Part shown: one piece after another, positions 17,104-30,205 of the stretch
How positions within the stretch are numbered: position 1 is the first letter of the stretch
How the letters are laid out: the number at the start of each line of letters is the position of its first letter
Assembly: GCA_944388105.1 (NCBI GenBank)
Contig: CALXHN010000011.1
Coordinates: 1-41,320, forward strand
DNA: 41,320 nt
Source: an uncultured Gemmiger sp.
Lineage (GTDB): Bacteria > Bacillota > Clostridia > Oscillospirales > Ruminococcaceae
Direction: 5' to 3'
Translations under genes and position numbers: made by a program
The notes under the pieces: model-generated
What the model saw: the letters and a program-made list of their open reading frames with translations, nothing else
Told to the model about the DNA's origin: nothing
The model's database searches: none

Positions 17104-19662
17104 TTATCGGGCGGGTTCGGACGAGGGCTCGGGGGCGGCGTCGGCGTGCACCTGGATCTTTCCGCTGCGCACCAGGTCGATGAACAGCTTGCCCAGGCGG
17201 GGGTCGAACTGGGAACCCAAATTGTCCTCGATCTCCTGCAGGGCCCGGTCCACGCTCAGCGCGTCCTTGTAGCTGCGGCGGGAGACCATGGCGTCAAAGG
17301 AATCGGCCAGACACAGGCACCGGGCCCCGATGGGGATCTGCTCCCCCGCGATGCCCCGGGGATATCCCTGGCCGTCCCACCGTTCGTGGTGGCCCAGCAC
17401 CGAAGGGATGACGTAGTCCATGGAGGGCAGGTACCGGATCATGGAGATGGAATCCTCCACATGCTGCTTGATCACATCGTATTCCTCGGCGGTCAGGCGG
17501 CCGGTCTTGGAAAGGATGGTCTCCGGGGTGCCGATCTTGCCGATGTCATGCAGCAGACCCGCCTGCCGGACGATCTCGATGTGCTCGGCGTCCAGACCGG
17601 CGGCCCGGGCCAGGGCGGCGGCGTATTCCGCCACATGCTGGGAATGGCTGAAGGTGTAATGGTCCTTGGCGTCGATGGCGGCGGTCAGGGCGAAGATGGT
17701 GGAAGAACAGCTGTCCGCCAGGGCCCGCTTGGAGGCGTAGCTCTTGGCGATGCGGGTGTCCTCCGGCTCGGGGGTGTACAGGCACACCCGGTTCTTGCCG
17801 CTGTTCTTGGCGGAGTAGACGGCCATGCCCGCATAGGTCAGCAGCTCCTCCACGCTGCGGGCACAGGTGGGATAGCTGCTGATGCCGGCGCAGAAGGTCA
17901 GGAAACGGCGGGTGGTCTGACCGGAGCCCACCACTTCCCGCCGCAGCCACTGGCGGGCCTGCTCTGCGCAGTCGGTGGCGGTGTCCGGCGCACAGAAGGG
18001 GAAGCTGATGACAAATTCCTTGCCGCTGTACCGGGCCACGGTGCCCCGGCTGCCCACCAGCACCCGCAGGGCGTTGGCAAACCGCTTGAGGATGCGGTCC
18101 CCTTCGGCGGCGCCGTACAGTTCGTTGTACAGCCGGAAGTCGTCAAAGCTGATGATGAGCACCGTCAGCTGGTCGTGGCGGGCCAGATCAAAGTCCCGCT
18201 GCAGCACTTCCTGGAAATAACTGCGGTTGTACAGCCCGGTGAGCGGGTCAAACTGGGCCTTTTTGCGCAGCGCCTCATACAGGGAGGCGTTGTTCAGGGC
18301 AATGGCCAGCACCGCCGCCACCGAATCCAGCATGCTCAGCCGGTCCTGGGACAGGGCGCGGCGGGCGGCCGTGTCCTGCCGGGAAAACAGGGTCAGGGCG
18401 GTCATTTCCTCCCCGCTCATGACGGGCAGCAGCAGTTCCACCCGCATCTGGTCCAGGCGGTCCTTCTCCTTCTGCCACAGGGCCCGGAAATACCGGGACC
18501 GGGTGAATTCCGCGTACTGGGAACAGCAGCCCCGGGATTTCAGCCAGACCATCAGCGGATCGTCGGCGGCAAAGCTGTCCCGGCAGGCCACCGACATCTC
18601 GGTGGCATCCCGCATCTCGTAGCAGCCGGTGCGGCTGTCCAGCACAAAGATGCGGGCGGTGTATCCGGGCATGGTGTGCTGCAGGTAATCCCGGTACAGC
18701 TGCAGCAGGGCGTTCATGCTCAGGGTCTTGTTCACGTCGGTGCTGAACCGGCGCAGTTCCTCGTTCTGCTGTTCGGCGCCCTTGAGCAGGATGGCGGTCA
18801 TGAGGCGGCGGACCAGGCAGAACAGCAGCACCGTGAGCACCGACACCGCCACCGAGAAGACGATGGTCTTGTAGGGCATGAAGTTGGCAAAATACCGGGC
18901 ATAGAAGGCGTCCGCCGCACGATAGCAGCTGACCAGCAGCACGCTGGCGCAGATCAGGGCGATGGCAAACACCGGCCCGTTGGAGGCAAAGCTGCGCAGG
19001 GGCACCAGGCGGCGCCGGTACAGCATGTAGTACAGGCAGCAGGCGTTGACCATGCAGGAGAAGGTATCCACCGGCAGCGAGACCATCTGGGGCAGCACCG
19101 CCGATACGGTGCAGGCGAACATGACCGCCACGCCCACCAGCATGGGGCGGAACTGGGCGATGTCCGTCTGGCCGTTCCGGCAGCTTTTGTAAGCCAGACG
19201 CCAGGAGGCCAGCAGGGTGTACACGGCCATGAGGATGGGGATGGCCACCAGGGGCGAGACACCGTACTCAAAGCGGGTCTCGTGGCCCACCGTGACCATG
19301 TGGGGGTCGGTGATGAAGACGTTGCCCGCGTTGAGCAGCAGGATCACCAGCCAGATGGCCCCCTGCACAATGTGGGAGAAGGGCGCCTTGGTGGCGGTGA
19401 ACCGGTAGATGAAGTTGTAGACCAGGAAAGGTACCAGAAAGATGCCGGTGATGGACACCATGTACCAGAACGGGGACCCCGGTGCCAGCTGCAGGCGCAT
19501 GAAGAGGGACCCGCCGGACCACATGGTGAAAGCACCCAGCAGGGCGATGAAGGCATAGACCAGGCGGTCCTTCTTGGTGCTCAGGGCGGTGAGGAACAGA
19601 AACAGGTTGCACAGCAGGGAAAGCAGGGGCACAATGATGAACAGGCGTTCGTTCAGGGTCAC
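17104..19662 (-). CDS. Membrane GAF-GGDEF-HD-GYP cyclic-di-GMP signalling protein with degenerate GGDEF
   Basis: The 852-residue protein has eight or so membrane helices in residues 1-290, resembling a 7TM/histidine-kinase-type sensor. A helical and GAF-like region follows at 300-460, a GGDEF domain at 470-630 and an HD-GYP phosphodiesterase domain at 655-835. The GGDEF active site reads SGKEF (546-550), so cyclase activity is doubtful. The HD-GYP site is complete, with LLHDIGK around 703-709 and GHHERWDGQGYP at 757-768. I infer that it mainly degrades cyclic-di-GMP, with the GGDEF possibly binding nucleotide. It starts with GTG 19662 overlapping the stop of the GH3 gene (GTGA) and is last in a four-gene operon. 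Confidence 0.92.
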   Translation of the reverse strand: MTLNERLFIIVPLLSLLCNLFLFLTALSTKKDRLVYAFIALLGAFTMWSGGSLFMRLQLAPGSPFWYMVSITGIFLVPFLVYNFIYRFTATKAPFSHIVQGAIWLVILLLNAGNVFITDPHMVTVGHETRFEYGVSPLVAIPILMAVYTLLASWRLAYKSCRNGQTDIAQFRPMLVGVAVMFACTVSAVLPQMVSLPVDTFSCMVNACCLYYMLYRRRLVPLRSFASNGPVFAIALICASVLLVSCYRAADAFYARYFANFMPYKTIVFSVAVSVLTVLLFCLVRRLMTAILLKGAEQQNEELRRFSTDVNKTLSMNALLQLYRDYLQHTMPGYTARIFVLDSRTGCYEMRDATEMSVACRDSFAADDPLMVWLKSRGCCSQYAEFTRSRYFRALWQKEKDRLDQMRVELLLPVMSGEEMTALTLFSRQDTAARRALSQDRLSMLDSVAAVLAIALNNASLYEALRKKAQFDPLTGLYNRSYFQEVLQRDFDLARHDQLTVLIISFDDFRLYNELYGAAEGDRILKRFANALRVLVGSRGTVARYSGKEFVISFPFCAPDTATDCAEQARQWLRREVVGSGQTTRRFLTFCAGISSYPTCARSVEELLTYAGMAVYSAKNSGKNRVCLYTPEPEDTRIAKSYASKRALADSCSSTIFALTAAIDAKDHYTFSHSQHVAEYAAALARAAGLDAEHIEIVRQAGLLHDIGKIGTPETILSKTGRLTAEEYDVIKQHVEDSISMIRYLPSMDYVIPSVLGHHERWDGQGYPRGIAGEQIPIGARCLCLADSFDAMVSRRSYKDALSVDRALQEIEDNLGSQFDPRLGKLFIDLVRSGKIQVHADAAPEPSSEPAR

Positions 19663-21287
19663 CGGTCCTCACCCCCTTCTTCCGCCGGACCCTGCATATG
19701 CAGGATGTCCAGCACGATCTCCCGGGGTGCGCCCACCGGCGGGACCCGGCGGCCGGTGCGGGCGGTATAGGCATCCACCGTGCCGGATTTCAGGATGGTC
19801 ACCCGCAGCGGGTCCATGCCCAGCAGGCGTTTCAGGTCCTTGTAATCTCCGTCATAGGAGCGGAAGTAGATGGACAGATGTTCCTGCAGAATCTGCCGGG
19901 ACAGGCTGGCGGCGCCGGGATCGTCCGAGTCCAGCTCCGCGTACAGGTCCAGGTAGGAGTGGCCGTCGGCGTCGTATTCCTTCACCGCGAACCAGTGCCC
20001 GATGGGCAGGCGGGAGAGGGTGATGACCTTTTCAATCTCCCGTTTGGTGATGCGGGTGAAGCCCGCAATGTCGATGACGGTGGGGATGCGGTCCACATAC
20101 TCGAACTGGGGCAGGTCCAGCTTGTCCTCCGGGTTGCGCAGACGCAGGCAGCGGTAGATATCCCCCACCCGATAGCGCAGGAAGGCGCCGCCCTTGAGCA
20201 CCGTGATGACCAGCTCGTATTTCTGGCCGGCCACCAGCTCGTCCATCAGATAGGTGCGGGGCGTGTAGGCGGGATCTTCCAGTTCCCGGAGGTATTCGTG
20301 CTCGGGAATGAACTCATAGAAGCAGGCGTCCGGGAAAAAGACCAGCCCGTTCTTGCTCCAAGTCTCGGTGCCCATGCAGGAAGGCTCGGTGCCGCCGGCC
20401 AGTTCCAGGGGACGGATGCCCCAGGCTTCGGCCAGCTCGTTCTTGTACAGGGCGGTGTCGGTACCCACACAGACAAACCCGTCCAGCTTGAACAGGTCCC
20501 GGGGCCGCAGATGGGTGCCGTCCCGCCGGCAGCGGTACAGGGCCGACAGCAGCCGTACCAGCATGCGGGGACTCATCCCCCACAGAAGGCTCAGACTGCC
20601 GCCGCCCCCGCCGCCGGCCAGACTGTCCAGGTTGCGGGTGGCGCCGTACAGCACGCTGCTCATGCCGAAAAACAGGTTCATGCCGTGCTTGACCGCCAGC
20701 TTGTATCCCAGGCGGGTCTGCTGGCCGAAGCTCATCTTGCGGGCTTCCCGCACCGAGGGCATGAACCGCAGGCGGATCTGCGGGCGGATCAGGTCGGGAA
20801 ACATGCCGGTGGCGTAGGGCATGGGGGCCAGACTGTACAGCACCCGGGCCCCGGGCCGCACATGAAAATGGCCCCGGCCCTTGCTGGTGGACAGGATCAT
20901 GGCCGCCAGAATGTTGCGGGTGTAGGCTTCCAGCATGCTCTCGGTATAAGGAGCGCGCTTGGAGGGAAAATCGCCGCCCTCCCAGGTGGTGTGCAGCCAC
21001 ACCACCGGCTTGGCGGGCAGCATCTCCTCCCGCTGGGGCAGCAGTACGTCGGCGTAATCCTCAAATTTCGTCAGGGGGACCAGGGTGCGGAACTCCTCCA
21101 CATTGCGGGGCACACCGTTCTTGAACAGGCGCTGCCCCAGCGGGCAGGCGGCCATCAGCGACACCTGCTCCATGACCAGGCGGTTCTGGATCTGCATGTA
21201 CTCCGGCAGAGTCAGGTCCAGAAAACCGCAGTATTCCTGCCAGATTTCGGCGGCCGGACATTGTTTCAGCTTTTCCTCAAAGGTCAT
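19659..21287 (-). CDS. GH3-family acyl-acid adenylating enzyme (auxin-responsive GH3-like)
   Basis: The 542-residue protein matches the GH3 adenylate-forming superfamily by overall length, the ATP-binding region near LELAGGTEPSCMGTE, the motif FFPDACFYEFIP, and the C-terminal LRYRVGDIYRCL followed by FEYVDR. In plants GH3 enzymes join acyl acids such as auxin or jasmonate to amino acids; bacterial members are largely uncharacterised but should activate a carboxylate with ATP. The glycine-rich loop GGGGGG inside the N-terminal domain is unusual. It has an ATG with AGGGAT upstream, follows the methyltransferase-like gene by 25 bases, and overlaps the HD-GYP gene. Confidence 0.85.
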   Translation of the reverse strand: MTFEEKLKQCPAAEIWQEYCGFLDLTLPEYMQIQNRLVMEQVSLMAACPLGQRLFKNGVPRNVEEFRTLVPLTKFEDYADVLLPQREEMLPAKPVVWLHTTWEGGDFPSKRAPYTESMLEAYTRNILAAMILSTSKGRGHFHVRPGARVLYSLAPMPYATGMFPDLIRPQIRLRFMPSVREARKMSFGQQTRLGYKLAVKHGMNLFFGMSSVLYGATRNLDSLAGGGGGGSLSLLWGMSPRMLVRLLSALYRCRRDGTHLRPRDLFKLDGFVCVGTDTALYKNELAEAWGIRPLELAGGTEPSCMGTETWSKNGLVFFPDACFYEFIPEHEYLRELEDPAYTPRTYLMDELVAGQKYELVITVLKGGAFLRYRVGDIYRCLRLRNPEDKLDLPQFEYVDRIPTVIDIAGFTRITKREIEKVITLSRLPIGHWFAVKEYDADGHSYLDLYAELDSDDPGAASLSRQILQEHLSIYFRSYDGDYKDLKRLLGMDPLRVTILKSGTVDAYTARTGRRVPPVGAPREIVLDILHMQGPAEEGGEDR

Positions 21288-23761: not shown

Positions 23762-25810
23762 TCAGTCGTCCAGTTCAAAGTCCCCGGGCAGCAGCAGGTC
23801 CAGGGGAGCGGCCGGGTCGGCCACCAGACGGCGGGACTGGTTCAGGATGGCCCGTTCCAGGGCGTTGCGGGCCATGCGGCCGTTGCCCGCCTTGGCGGCG
23901 TCCTCTGCCTGACGGCGGGCAAACCAGGATTTGAGGGGCAGGGCACAGCCTTCGTCCAGGCGGTAGCCCTTGGCGGCGGCCAGACTCCGGGTGATGGCCC
24001 ACAGCTCGTCGGCGGTGTAGTCGGGAAACTCGATCTGGTTGGGGAACCGGCTGGCCAGACCGGAGTTGGCGGCCAGGAAGGTCTGCATCTCTTTGGTGTA
24101 GCCCGCCAGCACCACCACCAGATCGTTGCGGTGGTCCTCGATGCCCTTCACCAGGGTGTCGATGGCTTCCAGGCCGAAGCTGTCCTCCCCGCCCCGGTAG
24201 AGGCTGTAGGCTTCGTCAATGAACAGCACCCCGCCCAGGGCGCTGCTGATGACCTGGTTGGTCAGGGGGGCGGTGTGGCCCACATACCGGCCCACCAGGT
24301 CGGCACGGCCCACCTCCACCAGCTGGCCGCCCCGCAAGGCGCCGATGGCCTTCAGGTACTTGGCCAGGATGCGGGCGATGGTGGTCTTGCCGGTGCCCGG
24401 GTTGCCGGTGAAGATCATGTGCATGTTGATCTCCGCCACCGGCAGGCCCTGGGCCTTGCGCCGCTGTTGGGCCTGCACGTTTTTGGCGATGTCCCGCACA
24501 AAGGTCTTGACCTGGGCAAGGCCCACGATGCGGTCCAGCTCGGCCTCCACCGCCTCCACGTCACCCCGGTATTGCTGGGGCAGCAGGCTGAGCAGGTCGA
24601 AGGCCTCCCCGCCGTCCACGGCGGCAAAGACCCGGCCCTCCCGCACCGTGAGCACCGCGGGGGTGCCGTCGGCGGGGGCGGTGTCGGTGGAAAGAACATA
24701 TTCCGCCAGGGCGCGGAAGAGCAGGTCCGCAAACTCCCGCATGGCGCTCATGCCGCCCCGCTTGCCGTACTGGGCGGCCAGATAATCCCGCATGTCCGCC
24801 CCCATGGACAGGGCCAGCCCGCACTGGCGGCGGGTCTTCTGGGCCAGGAAGTTCAGTTCCCGGGCGGCGATGGCGGCCAGACTTTCGGGGGTGAAGGGGT
24901 CGGTGCGGCAGATATCCCCGGCCAGGGCGTCCACGAACCGGGCGCCGAACCGGTCGGCCAGGGCGGCCTCATCCTTCTCGGAGAAAAAGACGAAATACTT
25001 GCCCCCGGCACTGAGCTCACCCACGGCCCCCGGGGCCAGGGCGGTGCCCACATCCACCAGGATGCCCCGCTGCAGCACATACCGGCTGGAAAGGGCCAGG
25101 GTGCCGTCCATGGCCAGGTCAGCCACCATGTTCAGGTAGGAGGAGGCACAGGCCTCGTAGTGGTCGAAGGCCAGCACCTGGGCGGGGGACTGCAGGGCTG
25201 CGTACAGGTCCTGCAGAAAGAGCTTTTCCTGGGCGGGGCCGGGGTAGAGGGCCAGGTCCAGGGTCTCGATGTCGGCGTTGGGCAGCAGGCCCCGGTCGGC
25301 CATCTGCCGCACCACACACCGCAGGGTGTAGTGGCGGCCGGTGCCCTCCGGCCCGCAGAGCAGCATGGGCCCCCGGGCTTTGCGGGGGTCGTCAGTGCCC
25401 ATGACAAAGGGACGGCGGAAGGCCTTGACCACATCCGCCACAAAGGCGTCCTGGCCCAGCACCTCGGTGCGCACGGCGGCGGCCAGCCCCTGGAACCCGG
25501 CACCCCGGGCGGGGGCAGGCCCGGGCGCGGAGGCTTTGGTATCGTCCAGCAGACCGTCGCTGCGCAGACTGCGGGTCAGTTCGGTGCTCATCCGGCGGAC
25601 GTTCTCGGTGGTGGCGGCCGCCGCCCGGTCCACTGCGTCCAGGGCGTCGGCGGCAGAGCGGCGGCGCTTGCTGCCGGCGGCCAGGGCATCCAGCTGTGCC
25701 TGCATGTCGGCCAGACTGGCAACGGCCGCATCGGCCTGTTCCTTGCTGCCGGAGCCCCGGGAACCCATCAGGCTCCGGACCCAGGCGTCATACCCGTCCT
25801 CAATGCTCAT
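23762..25810 (-). CDS. Double-AAA ATPase: degenerate ClpB-like module plus active CbbX-like module
   Basis: The 682-residue protein has a helical N-terminus (about 1-100) and a first AAA-like module at about 105-340. There GPEGTGRH (153-160) replaces the Walker A lysine and the Walker B reads VLAFDH, so it should not hydrolyse ATP. A second module at about 420-600 is of CbbX/CfxQ type, with Walker A GNPGTGKT (469-476), Walker B VLFIDEAY (527-534), sensor VVVLAGY and the Arg in GLASRFPNQ. CbbX-like ATPases remodel protein complexes (rubisco activation, type VII secretion EccA). Here the gene overlaps the 3' end of the Cys-tail membrane protein gene by 11 bases, so its likely client is that protein or the radical SAM enzyme, by inference. 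AAGGAGG precedes ATG. Confidence 0.9.
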   Translation of the reverse strand: MSIEDGYDAWVRSLMGSRGSGSKEQADAAVASLADMQAQLDALAAGSKRRRSAADALDAVDRAAAATTENVRRMSTELTRSLRSDGLLDDTKASAPGPAPARGAGFQGLAAAVRTEVLGQDAFVADVVKAFRRPFVMGTDDPRKARGPMLLCGPEGTGRHYTLRCVVRQMADRGLLPNADIETLDLALYPGPAQEKLFLQDLYAALQSPAQVLAFDHYEACASSYLNMVADLAMDGTLALSSRYVLQRGILVDVGTALAPGAVGELSAGGKYFVFFSEKDEAALADRFGARFVDALAGDICRTDPFTPESLAAIAARELNFLAQKTRRQCGLALSMGADMRDYLAAQYGKRGGMSAMREFADLLFRALAEYVLSTDTAPADGTPAVLTVREGRVFAAVDGGEAFDLLSLLPQQYRGDVEAVEAELDRIVGLAQVKTFVRDIAKNVQAQQRRKAQGLPVAEINMHMIFTGNPGTGKTTIARILAKYLKAIGALRGGQLVEVGRADLVGRYVGHTAPLTNQVISSALGGVLFIDEAYSLYRGGEDSFGLEAIDTLVKGIEDHRNDLVVVLAGYTKEMQTFLAANSGLASRFPNQIEFPDYTADELWAITRSLAAAKGYRLDEGCALPLKSWFARRQAEDAAKAGNGRMARNALERAILNQSRRLVADPAAPLDLLLPGDFELDD

Positions 25811-26894
25811 GGGGCGCCTCCTTGTCGCTTTTCACGGTGATGCGGTAAAAATTCTTCACGCTGCAGCCGGCCCGTCCGCCGCCCGCACAGGCGCAGGCAC
25901 AGGCACAGCTGGAAACACAGGCACAGGCACATCCGCCGCCGGTGCGTCCGGCACCGCCGCCCCGGAAGGAACCGCCGTCCGCATGGAAGCCGGCGGGCGG
26001 TGCGGTGGGGGTGTAGCCCGGGGGCGGGACTGCCCCCGGCGCCAGATGGATGACGTGGTGGCCGTTGCTGTACCAGCGGCGGTCACTGCGGCCGAAGCCG
26101 CCCCGCCAGCGGGGACAGGTGGTGGCGTACATCCAGAAGATGAAAAAGACAAAGGCGAAGACGGAGACCATGAAGACCAGGATGATGAGGCTGTCCCTGC
26201 TCTGGATCTCGTCGGGCTGCATGCGGGTGGTGGGGTCGTAGGTGTCGGCCAGGGCGGCAGGGACCTGCACCCGGACGGTGGCTTTCTCCCCGTGGTCCAA
26301 AGCGCCGAAGTCCCACACATAATACCCGTCTTCCATCGTGTCGGTGTCGGCGGTCATGCCGTCGGCAGCCTTCCACCGGATGGTCAGTTGCTCCACGCAC
26401 AGGTCGTCAAACCAGCCGGGGGTGAAATTGTAGCTGGCGGTGCCGTCGTCCGACACGGTGTACAGGTGGCTCTGGTGCACCCGGAAGGAAAAGCGGACCC
26501 GGCTCTGCTGGCCGGACTGGGCCGCATAGACGGGCTCATAGTACCGGTACACAAAGGTGACGCGGGCAAAGGTGTTGCCGTCCTCGGTCTGTACCCGCAC
26601 CCCCGAGACCGTGTCCGGGGTCAGGTTCTCAAATTCGTCCACATGCCCGTTGGCCAGACCAATCTTGACCCAGGACAGAGGCTCGTCGGAACTGCCGCCG
26701 ATGACCTCCCAGTCGATGTCATAGGTGATGTCAGCGCTGCCGTCTGCCCGGGGGTCCACCGTGACGGTGTAGGCGTTGATGCGGTCCAGATCGCCGCTGT
26801 CCGCCCGGGCGGGCAGCGCCGCCAGCAGGCTCAGCAGCAGGATCACAGGCAGCAGGGCGGCCAGACGGCGGGCGCGGAAAAGCAGTGTGTTCAT
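25800..26894 (-). CDS. Membrane protein with DUF2207-like ectodomain and Cys-Ala repeat C-terminal tail
   Basis: The 364-residue protein has a signal peptide (1-31), a beta-rich ectodomain (about 35-225) resembling DUF2207-type proteins, one membrane helix (234-256) and a predicted cytoplasmic tail. The tail is Gly/Pro/His-rich and then carries eight Cys at 322, 324, 326, 330, 332, 334, 336 and 344 (CACACVSSCACACAC, then RAGCS), followed by a short basic/acidic end. The Cys-Ala run is encoded by near-repeated TGTGCC codons. It lies between a radical SAM/SPASM gene (ATGA overlap) and an AAA-ATPase gene (11-base overlap), so the tail is the natural candidate substrate for the enzyme. The start ATG 26894 has AGGAGG seven bases upstream; the longer frame to 27038 is unsupported. 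Confidence 0.85.
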   Translation of the reverse strand: MNTLLFRARRLAALLPVILLLSLLAALPARADSGDLDRINAYTVTVDPRADGSADITYDIDWEVIGGSSDEPLSWVKIGLANGHVDEFENLTPDTVSGVRVQTEDGNTFARVTFVYRYYEPVYAAQSGQQSRVRFSFRVHQSHLYTVSDDGTASYNFTPGWFDDLCVEQLTIRWKAADGMTADTDTMEDGYYVWDFGALDHGEKATVRVQVPAALADTYDPTTRMQPDEIQSRDSLIILVFMVSVFAFVFFIFWMYATTCPRWRGGFGRSDRRWYSNGHHVIHLAPGAVPPPGYTPTAPPAGFHADGGSFRGGGAGRTGGGCACACVSSCACACACAGGGRAGCSVKNFYRITVKSDKEAPHEH

Positions 26895-28279
26895 GATTCG
26901 TCCTCCTGCAAAGGCGTTTCGCCCAGAGGGCAGATGTGCAGCATTTTGGCGCTCTGCCGGCGGATGCGGCGGCAGGCCGGATGGTTCCAGATGCGCCGCC
27001 AGGGCTGGTGCAGGATACTGCCCAGCCCCGGTCCGCACAACCAGCTCTGGCAGGGCAGCACGGTGCCGTCCGGGGCGATGGCCATGTTGGACAGGCAGGC
27101 CCCGCAGCTGGGCAGCTGGGTAAAGCCCAGCTCCCGCAGGGTCTCCTCCTTCAGCCAGCCCGGACTGGTGAAGTCCAGCTCCATGCCGTGCGCCTCCGCA
27201 AAGGCCCGGGCGTCTTTCAGGGTCCGGGTGAGTTCGGCGGGGGACAGGCGGGTGCCCCGGCTCTCGGGGCTCTGGGCGCTGCCCGCGGGGATCAGCCCGG
27301 AACAGGTGGCGTACCGGATGCCCAGTTCATGGGCCAGGGCCAGGGTGGATGCATAGTCCCGGTTCAGGCTGCACAGCGGGGTGTTGATGCTCACGTTCAG
27401 GCCGGCGGCCAGGGCGTTGCGGATACCGGCAATGGTGTCCGCATAGCCCGGGGCCCCCACCAGGGTATTGTGGATGGATTCGTCGGCGGAATACAGGGTG
27501 ACCTGCACGCTGTCCAGGCTGGCCTCATACAGGTCGTGGCACAAAGCGCTGGTGAGCATCCGGCCGTTGGTGTTCAGCCGGGTGACGAACCACTGGGCGG
27601 CGTCCACCAGCTTGACCAGGTCGTGGCGCAGGGTGGGTTCGCCCCCGGTGAAGGTCAGCTGGGGGATGCCCGCCGCCCGACATTTCTGGATGACCGCCAG
27701 CCACTGGTCGGTGTCCAGCTCCTCGGTCTCGCCGTAGGGCTGGCGGGCGGCGTAGCAGTGCAGGCATTTCTGGTTGCAGTGCCAGGCCCCGTCCTTGACC
27801 ATGGCGCTGATGAGCAGGTCCATGCGGTGGGGCGCCGCCATGTGGCGGGCATAGGAACCCAGGTCCATGGGCTGGATCTCCTGGGCGGGGGCCTTGCCTC
27901 TGGCGATGGCGGACAGCGCTTCCATCATGGAGCGCAGGTCGGCGGCGATCTGTTCCGGCGGGGTGCGTTTGTACACGGCGCAGGTGGCCTGCACGGCGGC
28001 GTCGGCGGCCTGCTGCCACTGCTCCTCCCCGATCTCCTGGCCTTCAAAGGGCTGCAGGGTTTCCATCAGGTTGGCCAGCAGAATGGCCCAGGAAACGCTC
28101 AGGGGCAGGATGTCCTTTCCGTTGAGGATGGCCACAAAGGGCACGTCGGTGTGCTGGTGCCGGCTGGGCACCAGATGGATGCGAAGGGCGCCGGGTCCTT
28201 CCGGGTCCAGGGTGATGTGGCACACATGGTCCAGATGGCGGCGCAGAAACTGGGTCTCGGCCCGGCTCAAAAGCGGCAT
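26891..28279 (-). CDS. Radical SAM enzyme with SPASM-like C-terminal cluster domain
   Basis: The 462-residue protein has an N-terminal helical/beta domain (1-155) of unknown type, perhaps a peptide-recognition domain. The radical SAM core follows with CNQKCLHC (Cys168, 172, 175) for the [4Fe-4S]-SAM cluster and TGGEPT (211-216). The C-terminal SPASM-like region has Cys392, 395, 410, 415, 436 and 450 around ACLSNMAIAPDGTVLPC. SPASM enzymes generally modify ribosomal peptides (sactionine, ranthionine and related links), sometimes proteins. AGGAGG lies six bases before ATG 28279. Its stop overlaps the start of the Cys-tail membrane protein (ATGA), which implies coordinated amounts. Single promoter upstream. 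Confidence 0.93.
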   Translation of the reverse strand: MPLLSRAETQFLRRHLDHVCHITLDPEGPGALRIHLVPSRHQHTDVPFVAILNGKDILPLSVSWAILLANLMETLQPFEGQEIGEEQWQQAADAAVQATCAVYKRTPPEQIAADLRSMMEALSAIARGKAPAQEIQPMDLGSYARHMAAPHRMDLLISAMVKDGAWHCNQKCLHCYAARQPYGETEELDTDQWLAVIQKCRAAGIPQLTFTGGEPTLRHDLVKLVDAAQWFVTRLNTNGRMLTSALCHDLYEASLDSVQVTLYSADESIHNTLVGAPGYADTIAGIRNALAAGLNVSINTPLCSLNRDYASTLALAHELGIRYATCSGLIPAGSAQSPESRGTRLSPAELTRTLKDARAFAEAHGMELDFTSPGWLKEETLRELGFTQLPSCGACLSNMAIAPDGTVLPCQSWLCGPGLGSILHQPWRRIWNHPACRRIRRQSAKMLHICPLGETPLQEDES

Positions 28280-28422: not shown

Positions 28423-28454
28423 AAAAACACCCGCCCGCGGTGTGCGGACGGGTG
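28423..28454 (-). terminator. Second of two tandem terminators after prfC
   Basis: CACCCGTCCGC and GCGGGCGGGTG (minus strand) form an 11-pair stem with one mismatch, followed by TTTTTCTTT. It insulates the radical SAM operon from prfC transcription. Confidence 0.8.
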
Positions 28455-28458
28455 AAAC

Positions 28459-28490
28459 CAAAAAAATCCCGCCCGCAGGCCGCGGACGGG
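28459..28490 (-). terminator. First terminator after prfC
   Basis: CCCGTCCGC and GCGGGCGGG (minus strand) pair around GGCCT and are followed by seven Ts. It is ten bases past the prfC stop. Confidence 0.85.
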
Positions 28491-28499
28491 AGATAACGA

Positions 28500-30113
28500 T
28501 CAGAAGGTGAGGTTGCCGAATTCGGACAGGCGCAGGTCGGAATTGTGCTCCTGGGCCCAGTTGATGCTCCACGGGCTGCCGAAGAGCAGCAGGCGGTTGC
28601 CCTTCAGGTCCTCGATGGCCCGGGTGTCGCTGGTCACGTCCAGGGTCTTGGGGTCCAGCTCGTCCGGGGTGTTGAGGATCCAGCGGATATACTCATAGGG
28701 CAGGGTCTGCAGGCGGATGTCCACGTTGTACTCGTTTTTCAGGCGGTACTCCAGCACTTCCAGCTGCAGCACGCCCACCACGCCCACAATGACTTCCTCC
28801 ATGCCGGAACCCAGGTCCCGGAAGATCTGGATGGCGCCTTCCTGGGCGATCTGTTCCATGCCCTTGACGAACTGCTTGCGCTTCATGGTGTCCACCTGGG
28901 TCACCCGGGCAAAGTGCTCGGGGGCGAAGGTGGGGATGCCCGCAAACCGCACATGGGGCTTGCCGGTGCACAGGGTATCGCCGATGGAGAAGATGCCCGG
29001 GTCAAACAGGCCGATGATATCCCCGGCGTAGGCCTCGTCCACAATGGCGCGGTCATCGGCCATCATGCTGGTGCCGGTGGCCAGTTTGATGTTCTTGTTC
29101 TCCTGCACATGGAAGGCTTCCATGCCCCGCTCGAACTTGCCGGAGCAGATGCGCACAAAGGCGATGCGGTCCCGGTGGTTCTTGTTCATGTTGGCCTGGA
29201 TCTTGAAGATGAAACCGGAGAAATCCGGGCTCTGGGGGTCCACCAGCTCGCCGCTCTCGGCGTCCTTGCGGGGCAGCGGGGTGGGGGTCAGGCGCAAAAA
29301 GTCCCGCAGGAAGGGTTCCACGCCGAAGTTGGTCAGCGCCGACCCGAAGAATACCGGGGACAATTCGCCCCGGTGCACCGCGGCCAGATCAAACTCCTCC
29401 GCGGCGCCGTCCAGCAGCTCGATGTCGTCGGCCAGACGCTGGTGGTTGTCCGCCCCGATGAGGTCGTCCAGGGCAGGGTCCCCCAGACCGGCCTCGATCT
29501 CGTCCACCATCTTCACGCCGTTGGCGCGGCCGTCGCCCTCAAAGGCCAGGACCCGGCGGCTGTTGCGGTCGAACACGCCCTTGAAGCCCTTGCCGCAGCC
29601 GATGGGCCAGTTCATGGGGTAGGTCTTGATGCCCAGGATCTCCTCAATGTTTTCCATCAGCTCAAAGGGGTCCCGGGCTTCCCGGTCCATCTTGTTGATG
29701 AAGGTGAAGATGGGGATGTGGCGCAGGGTGCAGACCTTGAACAGCTTGATGGTCTGGGCCTCCACGCCCTTGGCCGCGTCGATGACCATGACGGCAGAGT
29801 CCGCCGCCATCAGGGTGCGGTAGGTGTCCTCCGAGAAGTCCTGGTGGCCGGGGGTGTCCAGAATGTTGATGCACTTGCCCTGGTACCGGAACTGCAGCAC
29901 CGACGAGGTGACCGAGATGCCGCGCTGCTTTTCAATGTCCATCCAGTCGGACACGGCGTGCTTGGCGCTCTGCTTGCCCTTGACAGAACCGGCGGTCTGG
30001 ATGGCGCCCCCGTACAGAAGCAGCTTTTCGGTCAGGGTGGTTTTGCCGGCGTCCGGGTGCGAGATGATCGCAAATGTGCGCCGGCTTTCGATTTCTTCAC
30101 GCAATGAAGCCAT
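28500..30113 (-). CDS. prfC: Peptide chain release factor 3
   Basis: The 537-residue translational GTPase has the G1 loop SHPDAGKTTLTEK (18-30), G2 in KQRGISVTSS, G3 DTPGHQDFSEDTYR and G4 FINKMDRE, plus the RF3-specific domains 2 and 3 near the C-terminus. RF3 recycles RF1/RF2 from the ribosome after termination. Length is normal. The start ATG 30113 has AAGGAG 11 bases upstream; the longer frame to 30161 is not supported. It has its own promoter and ends in two tandem terminators, so it is a single-gene unit. Confidence 0.95.
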   Translation of the reverse strand: MASLREEIESRRTFAIISHPDAGKTTLTEKLLLYGGAIQTAGSVKGKQSAKHAVSDWMDIEKQRGISVTSSVLQFRYQGKCINILDTPGHQDFSEDTYRTLMAADSAVMVIDAAKGVEAQTIKLFKVCTLRHIPIFTFINKMDREARDPFELMENIEEILGIKTYPMNWPIGCGKGFKGVFDRNSRRVLAFEGDGRANGVKMVDEIEAGLGDPALDDLIGADNHQRLADDIELLDGAAEEFDLAAVHRGELSPVFFGSALTNFGVEPFLRDFLRLTPTPLPRKDAESGELVDPQSPDFSGFIFKIQANMNKNHRDRIAFVRICSGKFERGMEAFHVQENKNIKLATGTSMMADDRAIVDEAYAGDIIGLFDPGIFSIGDTLCTGKPHVRFAGIPTFAPEHFARVTQVDTMKRKQFVKGMEQIAQEGAIQIFRDLGSGMEEVIVGVVGVLQLEVLEYRLKNEYNVDIRLQTLPYEYIRWILNTPDELDPKTLDVTSDTRAIEDLKGNRLLLFGSPWSINWAQEHNSDLRLSEFGNLTF

Positions 30114-30205
30114 ATTTCCAATTACTCCTTGTTGATTGTGACAGTGACGGCCCAAACGCATCGGTCACATGGGGGCACACTCCTCTATTCTAAGCATACT
30201 TTTCT

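Follow-up and report, generated by a model that had tools for sequence, protein, structure and literature searches.

The question raised by this locus is whether a radical S-adenosylmethionine enzyme (rSAM) chemically remodels the cysteine-rich tail of the membrane protein encoded beside it, and which other genes, if any, belong to the reaction. The locus lies on a 41,320-nucleotide stretch from an uncultured Gemmiger sp. (GenBank assembly GCA_944388105.1, contig CALXHN010000011.1, positions 1 to 41,320 of the forward strand), called the window here. Three genes on its minus strand are concerned: the rSAM of 462 amino acids, the proposed tail maturase (26891-28279); a DUF2207-like membrane protein of 364 amino acids with a Cys-Ala tail, the proposed substrate (25800-26894), so named from its sequence, profile comparison and predicted fold; and a double AAA ATPase of 682 amino acids (23762-25810). 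A preliminary description had read the three as one overlapping operon and proposed a tail-modifying system handled by an AAA chaperone. The overlaps are exactly where it put them, with ATGA at 26891-26894 and 11 bases at 25800-25810, and the range it gave for the three genes, 25800-28279, holds the first two but leaves the AAA gene outside. The proposal is partly supported: the pairing of enzyme and tail stands, with the tail as probable substrate, and the AAA chaperone finds no support as a general component. The rSAM and the Cys-Ala-tail membrane protein are a conserved two-gene module, and the Cys-Ala repeat is probably the target of an undescribed protein modification. With a probability of about 0.5, we suggest that the two are a maturase and its substrate, and that the enzyme puts thioether cross-links into a cytosolic Cys-Ala tail without the AAA ATPase taking part.

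The pairing was read from both ends. When named genomes were scanned for the tail core, at least 119 stretches came up. The 123 matches listed on them comprise 120 genuine tails and three chance matches that were dropped (L087, L133 and L139). The record titles of these stretches name Lachnospiraceae, Oscillospiraceae, other Clostridia, Eggerthellaceae, Coriobacteriaceae, Acholeplasmatales, Anaeroplasma and other Bacilli, and many carriers, both metagenome-assembled genomes (MAGs) and isolates, come from gut and rumen. Among the 120 tails listed, an ortholog of the rSAM adjoins the tail gene in 94 and stands in the same locus past a second tail gene in 3, while 22 are cut by an edge and one, L065, has none. 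Four of the edge-cut cases were settled by a genome search, which placed the rSAM next door by coordinates and brought the count to 101 paired out of 102 judgeable tails (97 of 98 before). The rSAM is upstream on the same strand in 89 of the 94 adjoining cases listed, downstream in 4 and on the opposite strand in 1; the two frames overlap or nearly touch in 89 of the 94, an upper bound that comes from using stop-to-stop open frames.

Searches led by the enzyme are the part of the data that is unbiased by the tail pattern. In 391 Clostridia genomes, the window enzyme found 16 genomes at an E-value of 1e-30: 11 have orthologs, one of which is truncated at a contig edge, and the other 5 have distant matches at 30-34% identity. 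A profile of the tail protein, run on the same 391 genomes, returned 11 genomes, identical to the 11 with an enzyme ortholog. The tail itself was read in 8 of these 11; the G449 contig stops short of the tail, the G590 contig stops inside it, and in G530 the gene is broken. The break in G530, on contig 1 (L163, L180, L185), is a naturally occurring disruption of the proposed substrate: a transposase gene splits the tail-protein gene into two pieces, with the adjoining rSAM still open. In the window's genus the enzyme is present in 31 of 35 genomes, including all 19 with completeness of 90% or more and contamination of 5% or less; the tail protein is present in the same 31, and the other 4 are without both. 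Thirty of these tail proteins were found by a DNA pattern and one, in G024, where the contig ends before the tail, by profile. Of 100 genomes searched for that DNA pattern, the one for CACACACA, 32 have it, and 30 of these are among the 35 of the genus, once each; a reversed control pattern gave zero matches in the 35. The two matches outside the genus are a true tail (L004, in G054) and a sequence that is not a tail (L003, in G077, a genome which also has two matches to the control).

Clustering of 116 loci, each of up to 8 kb, revealed no third family in more than 20 of them; 20 loci have mixed signalling proteins and 10 have ABC-type proteins. The remaining clusters, covering 13 and 20 loci, were rejected as partners, being opposite-strand frames that overlie the pair. 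Five clusters (L041, L043, L054/L058, L106 and L136) carry two tail proteins for a single rSAM, with ectodomains 59-69% identical and the tail kept in both; L161 is a sixth. Six loci, taken from the mixed cluster with no enrichment claimed, have a signalling gene on the strand of the rSAM and no more than about 130 bases from its frame: a histidine kinase (L042), GGDEF proteins (L066, L082), a hybrid kinase (L068), a response regulator (L108) and an Hpt protein (L073).

The proposed substrate was examined by sequence and by predicted structure. It had been described as ending in a Cys-Ala run; the run is there, at residues 322-337, but GGGRAGC and 20 further residues follow it. The tail as defined here, residues 322-344 (25863-25931), reads CACACVSSCACACACAGGGRAGC. 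Its conservation was judged in an alignment of 29 tail proteins, hand-picked for diversity, most of them found by the tail pattern. Mean column identity in that alignment is 24%. Between C330 and C344, however, 14 of the 15 columns show 90% or more of one residue or no variation at all, as against 15 of the other 349 positions. Across 125 distinct tails, the residue after Cys is Ala in 810 of 852 instances, Val in 37, Gly in 3 and Phe in 2, and the spacers SS, HSS and VSS are tolerated between Cys-Ala units. After the repeat comes a conserved segment, GRAGC(S/T)xKDFY, whose last part in the window is SVKNFY (25845-25862; SxKDFY in many relatives) and may serve as a recognition motif. The 28 Gemmiger core peptides are encoded by 27 distinct DNA sequences; the core DNA search pattern fixes codon positions 1 and 2, so that third-position variety alone is informative here. 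Low-complexity chance and assembly artefact were considered as sources of the run and ruled out by its conservation.

The rest of the protein is predicted to consist of an N-terminal helix, a beta-rich ectodomain (residues 37-212, in blocks whose predicted local distance difference test score, pLDDT, is mostly close to 90), a helix that crosses the membrane (233-259) and a C-terminus predicted to be disordered (pLDDT about 30-40). Mean net charge is -3.1 before the membrane helix and +2.7 after it, and is higher after it in 84 of 97 tail proteins; because this is the positive-inside pattern, the tail is likely to be cytosolic, on the same side as the enzyme. Pfam DUF2207 (PF09972) scores 19.1 bits on the window protein, below the gathering score of 24.4, and matches 6 of the 29 family members at an E-value of 0.01. 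Against a profile of 24 canonical DUF2207 members, the ectodomain aligned in hhalign with a probability of 85% (E 6.2e-6, 167 columns), which indicates homology. A fold search with the ectodomain gave ribophorin I, M1 peptidases and LppM as its best matches, all at low TM-score, from which no function can be assigned, and no NCBIfam model names the tail protein.

A tail of this kind might also do its work unmodified. Cys-Ala repeats could bind metal as they are, and 59 loci have a zinc-ribbon-like motif ahead of the tail; the tail would then be a Cys-rich metal or redox element, and the rSAM would act elsewhere, for instance on a small molecule or cofactor used by the membrane protein. We think this improbable, as it leaves unexplained the strict pairing of the two genes in the same genomes with frames that overlap or nearly touch, the lack of any other gene family in more than 20 of the 116 loci, the RRE-like front domain of the enzyme, and the parallel pairing in a second rSAM family, both described below.

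The enzyme is a member of the radical SAM superfamily, with a Pfam Radical_SAM score of 67.6 bits against a cut-off of 29.5 (E 2e-18). Its CxxxCxxC site, C168-x3-C172-x2-C175 (27755-27778), already recognised in the preliminary description, is unchanged in all 60 aligned orthologs; the alignment was made from 62 representatives, with the window protein in place of L001 and with L088 and L129 omitted. The SPASM-like cysteines reported alongside it are a more mixed case. Pfam SPASM matches residues 392-450 at 33.8 bits against a cut-off of 21.5 (E 4e-8), but the full seven-cysteine motif is absent; that motif is given, in the available part of PMC6231123, as C-x9-15-G-x4-C, then C-x2-C-x5-C-x3-C and a last C, and goes with two auxiliary clusters. 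Conservation in the 60 orthologs covers the first SPASM half plus two later cysteines only: C392 (60/60), C395 (51/60), C410 (60/60), C436 (54/60) and C450 (59/60), together at 26930-27106. For this reason the enzyme is better described as Twitch-like, with half a SPASM domain.

An AlphaFold2 model built from the 60-ortholog input has a mean pLDDT of 93.5. The first 127 residues are predicted to form a short helix, four strands and three helices, an arrangement that resembles RRE domains; the strands and the three helices fall in residues 16-127 (27899-28234), and Foldseek alignments to SkfB and SuiB, of 438-463 columns, extend into this front domain. A Pfam scan of the enzyme lists no PqqD match. 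In a profile search the nearest solved protein is SkfB (E 1.8e-22, covering residues 167-440 only), and in the Foldseek search SkfB is at rank 1, SuiB at ranks 2-6 and CteB entries at ranks 8, 9 and 11. The fold alignments to SkfB and SuiB have TM-scores of 0.51-0.58 and a root-mean-square deviation above 8, which may come from domain placement. Of the window enzyme's best 25 of 57 matches to NCBIfam models (June 2026), none attains the model's cut-off; the SkfB model scores 50.5 bits against a cut-off of 300, and the models common to the 60 orthologs are the same general ones. A defence role was dropped, as the PADLOC matches amount to generic viperin-core and AAA similarity.

That the closest solved relative, by both sequence and fold, is a thioether synthase is what points to cross-linking rather than to another radical reaction on the same pair, such as epimerisation to D-Ala or D-Cys, C-methylation or Cys oxidation. 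The core of the enzyme is similar to many different rSAM families, and epimerisation of every other residue, as by proteusin epimerases, would suit an iterative two-residue unit in which Cys is so regularly followed by Ala. We regard such a reaction as a real possibility, though a less likely one than cross-linking. It sits less well with the second, CHSA-type system, where regularly spaced cysteines are kept and the Cys-Ala dipeptide is not, which hints at Cys as the reacting residue.

This second system came from the five distant matches of the enzyme search (L242-L246, in genomes G436, G304, G364, G585 and G533), which form an rSAM family of their own with a fuller SPASM motif, as judged by eye. 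Directly upstream of the rSAM, in all five, is a membrane protein (open frame of 572-610 amino acids) that ends in CHSA/CHDA repeats and SGGA(R/K). The set has three genes: the membrane-protein gene, an rSAM/SPASM gene that overlaps it, and, after these, a third gene with an open frame of about 330-365 amino acids. Comparison of the CHSA-type protein with DUF2207 or with the Cys-Ala protein by profile was not significant with its five sequences, and one of four CHSA proteins scanned has a sub-threshold DUF2207 match, so a relation to DUF2207 is only suggestive. For contrast, canonical DUF2207 loci were sought in 245 genomes; 30 were examined and 29 frames read, three of which (L270, L273, L276) may differ from the gene's true end. 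None of the 29 has more than one Cys among its final 60 residues, and no rSAM was seen in their flanks, which downstream usually cover about 300 bases. Gly-rich ends were found in 24 of 26 canonical loci checked.

The AAA ATPase is a neighbour outside the conserved module, as judged from NCBIfam matches and locus comparison. The description of it as CbbX-like holds for its second half, which is CbbX/SpoVK-like, but with scores below the cut-offs (SpoVK 298.7 against 422.95, CbbX 243.8 against 459.25); the first half has no confident family match, and no NCBIfam model reaches its cut-off on the window copy among the matches listed. The preliminary description had looked to co-occurrence of the three families in other genomes as its test. 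The rSAM and the tail protein do co-occur elsewhere, and the AAA ATPase does not keep them company: it appears in 6 of the 119 named loci listed, all Gemmiger or Fournierella, and of the 100 listed tails that are followed by 2 kb or more of sequence, 94 show no AAA match. In a sample of the family, its N-terminal half was found in 18 of 148 genomes, 14 of them without the rSAM. In three of these 14 (G182, G059 and G209) prfC is followed directly by the AAA gene, with no rSAM or tail gene between; in the other 11, prfC falls outside the stretch seen. G116 has the pair and no AAA match. All this argues against a three-part system in which the chaperone handles the tail, to which we give hardly any credence. 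Such a system would draw on the gene overlaps in the window; on the 28 Gemmiger loci read (L005-L032), which all have the AAA gene 3' of the tail gene, as do the Fournierella-type loci L004, L040 and L151; and on G130, where one contig carries the AAA gene and, close by, the rSAM. Most simply read, a two-gene cassette sits between prfC and the AAA gene, which can adjoin without it. The AAA ATPase looks like a bystander and not a general component, though it may have a lineage-specific role in Gemmiger. Of the 123 genera of the bacterial family that were sampled, 14 have a member of this double AAA ATPase family (including L189-L204).

A maturase acting on this substrate would work as follows. 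The substrate is predicted to have a helix that acts as signal or anchor, a DUF2207-like beta domain outside the cell, a single transmembrane helix and, facing the cytosol, a disordered C-terminus with the Cys-Ala repeat. The rSAM would dock on the C-terminal region through its RRE-like domain, perhaps at the conserved GRAGC(S/T)xKDFY segment, and, as is general for its family, would generate a 5'-deoxyadenosyl radical at the CxxxCxxC cluster. It would then modify the Cys-Ala repeat with the help of one auxiliary cluster. The likeliest chemistry may be intramolecular Cys thioethers of a sactionine- or ranthionine-like kind, and the product could be a rigid or metal- or redox-competent tail on the inner face of the membrane. 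The AAA ATPase would be outside the core reaction.

Several points weigh against thioether cross-linking of the tail. The modification itself is a proposal drawn from sequence and structure prediction. The likeness to SkfB does not fix the reaction of the enzyme: its core also resembles PqqE, NirJ and MoaA, and the NCBIfam SkfB model is outranked by many others. In a comparison of the front domain with 28 PqqD-type sequences, hhalign gave a probability of 5.5%, which is not significant. Strict Cys-Ala alternation is, to our knowledge, unlike known sactipeptides. Conservation of the tail in the alignment of 29 and in most loci is partly selected by the search pattern, and tails reached through the enzyme show small variants, SSGRAGC, GGGRVGC and VGGRVGC. 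Finally, the tail at L065 (3631-4446, minus strand) has no adjacent rSAM, nor any rSAM match in its 1.7 Mb MAG; its frame also looks disrupted, with the front part out of frame and running into a long upstream reading frame with repeats.

The other features of the window add a setting for the pair. The gene order, all on the minus strand, is prfC (28500-30161), the rSAM, the tail protein, the AAA ATPase and a DegV-family gene. Upstream of the rSAM, a consensus scan found two overlapping promoter-like sites, the better being TTGTCC-17-TATAAT (28404-28376), preceded by two terminator-like hairpins between prfC and the pair (28428-28491). These are consensus matches, and it is plausible that one promoter drives all three genes, as had been proposed. 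Elsewhere in the window, at 19659-21287 (minus strand), is a GH3-like protein with a match to the GH3 central domain (Pfam, E 2.8e-12) and no NCBIfam match; the GH3 family is best known from plants.

The pair may belong to an unrecognised general class of protein modification, in which dedicated RRE-bearing rSAMs rework cytosolic Cys-repeat tails of DUF2207-like membrane proteins. The class would have at least two forms, Cys-Ala and CHSA/CHDA. It would convert what is ordinarily a Gly-rich tail into a membrane element that is cross-linked and metal- or redox-active, with two-component or cyclic-di-GMP signalling genes adjoining in some lineages. We consider the case for and against such a class evenly balanced. 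The rSAM maturases are familiar mainly as makers of small peptides for export, and this would be a different use of them: the permanent chemical remodelling of a cytosolic membrane-protein tail. The pair supplies a ready substrate sequence for mass spectrometry and a first handle on DUF2207-like proteins. No publication on the pair was found in a literature search that covered part of the field, with most subscription papers outside its scope, and searches with the tail motif strings gave two irrelevant papers and nothing on the pair.

Among known systems, QhpD, with QhpC, is an rSAM that cross-links cysteines inside a protein rather than in a small peptide, as is proposed here, but its substrate is an amine dehydrogenase subunit, which is not known to have a Cys-Ala repeat. 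Clusters for ribosomally synthesised and post-translationally modified peptides have a short leader-bearing precursor peptide together with export or protease genes. The locus differs in that the candidate substrate is a full membrane protein, and in that no family beyond the pair is found in more than 20 of the 116 loci. The canonical DUF2207 proteins (PF09972), for example SMU.243 of Streptococcus mutans, have an ectodomain related to that of the tail protein. Deletion of a DUF2207 protein in S. mutans lowers tolerance of acid, methyl viologen and peroxide, according to the available part of the source (PMC10457818). Their ends are mostly Gly-rich, and neither a Cys tail nor an rSAM was seen beside the 29 frames read. 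SuiB and CteB share the three-domain layout predicted for the window enzyme but have a full SPASM domain with two auxiliary clusters and act on small precursor peptides. Closest is SkfB, the sporulation killing factor sactisynthase (PDB 6EFN), which combines an RRE, a radical SAM domain and a Twitch domain with one auxiliary cluster, and makes thioethers (SuiB, CteB and SkfB as described in the available part of PMC6231123). The window enzyme shares with it the radical SAM barrel and the half-SPASM, has a front domain predicted to resemble its N-terminal RRE, and has SkfB as its best match by profile and fold, at 18% identity in the fold alignment; the substrate of SkfB is a small peptide bearing a leader, whereas the candidate here is the C-terminal end of a much larger chain, a membrane protein of about 300-500 amino acids.

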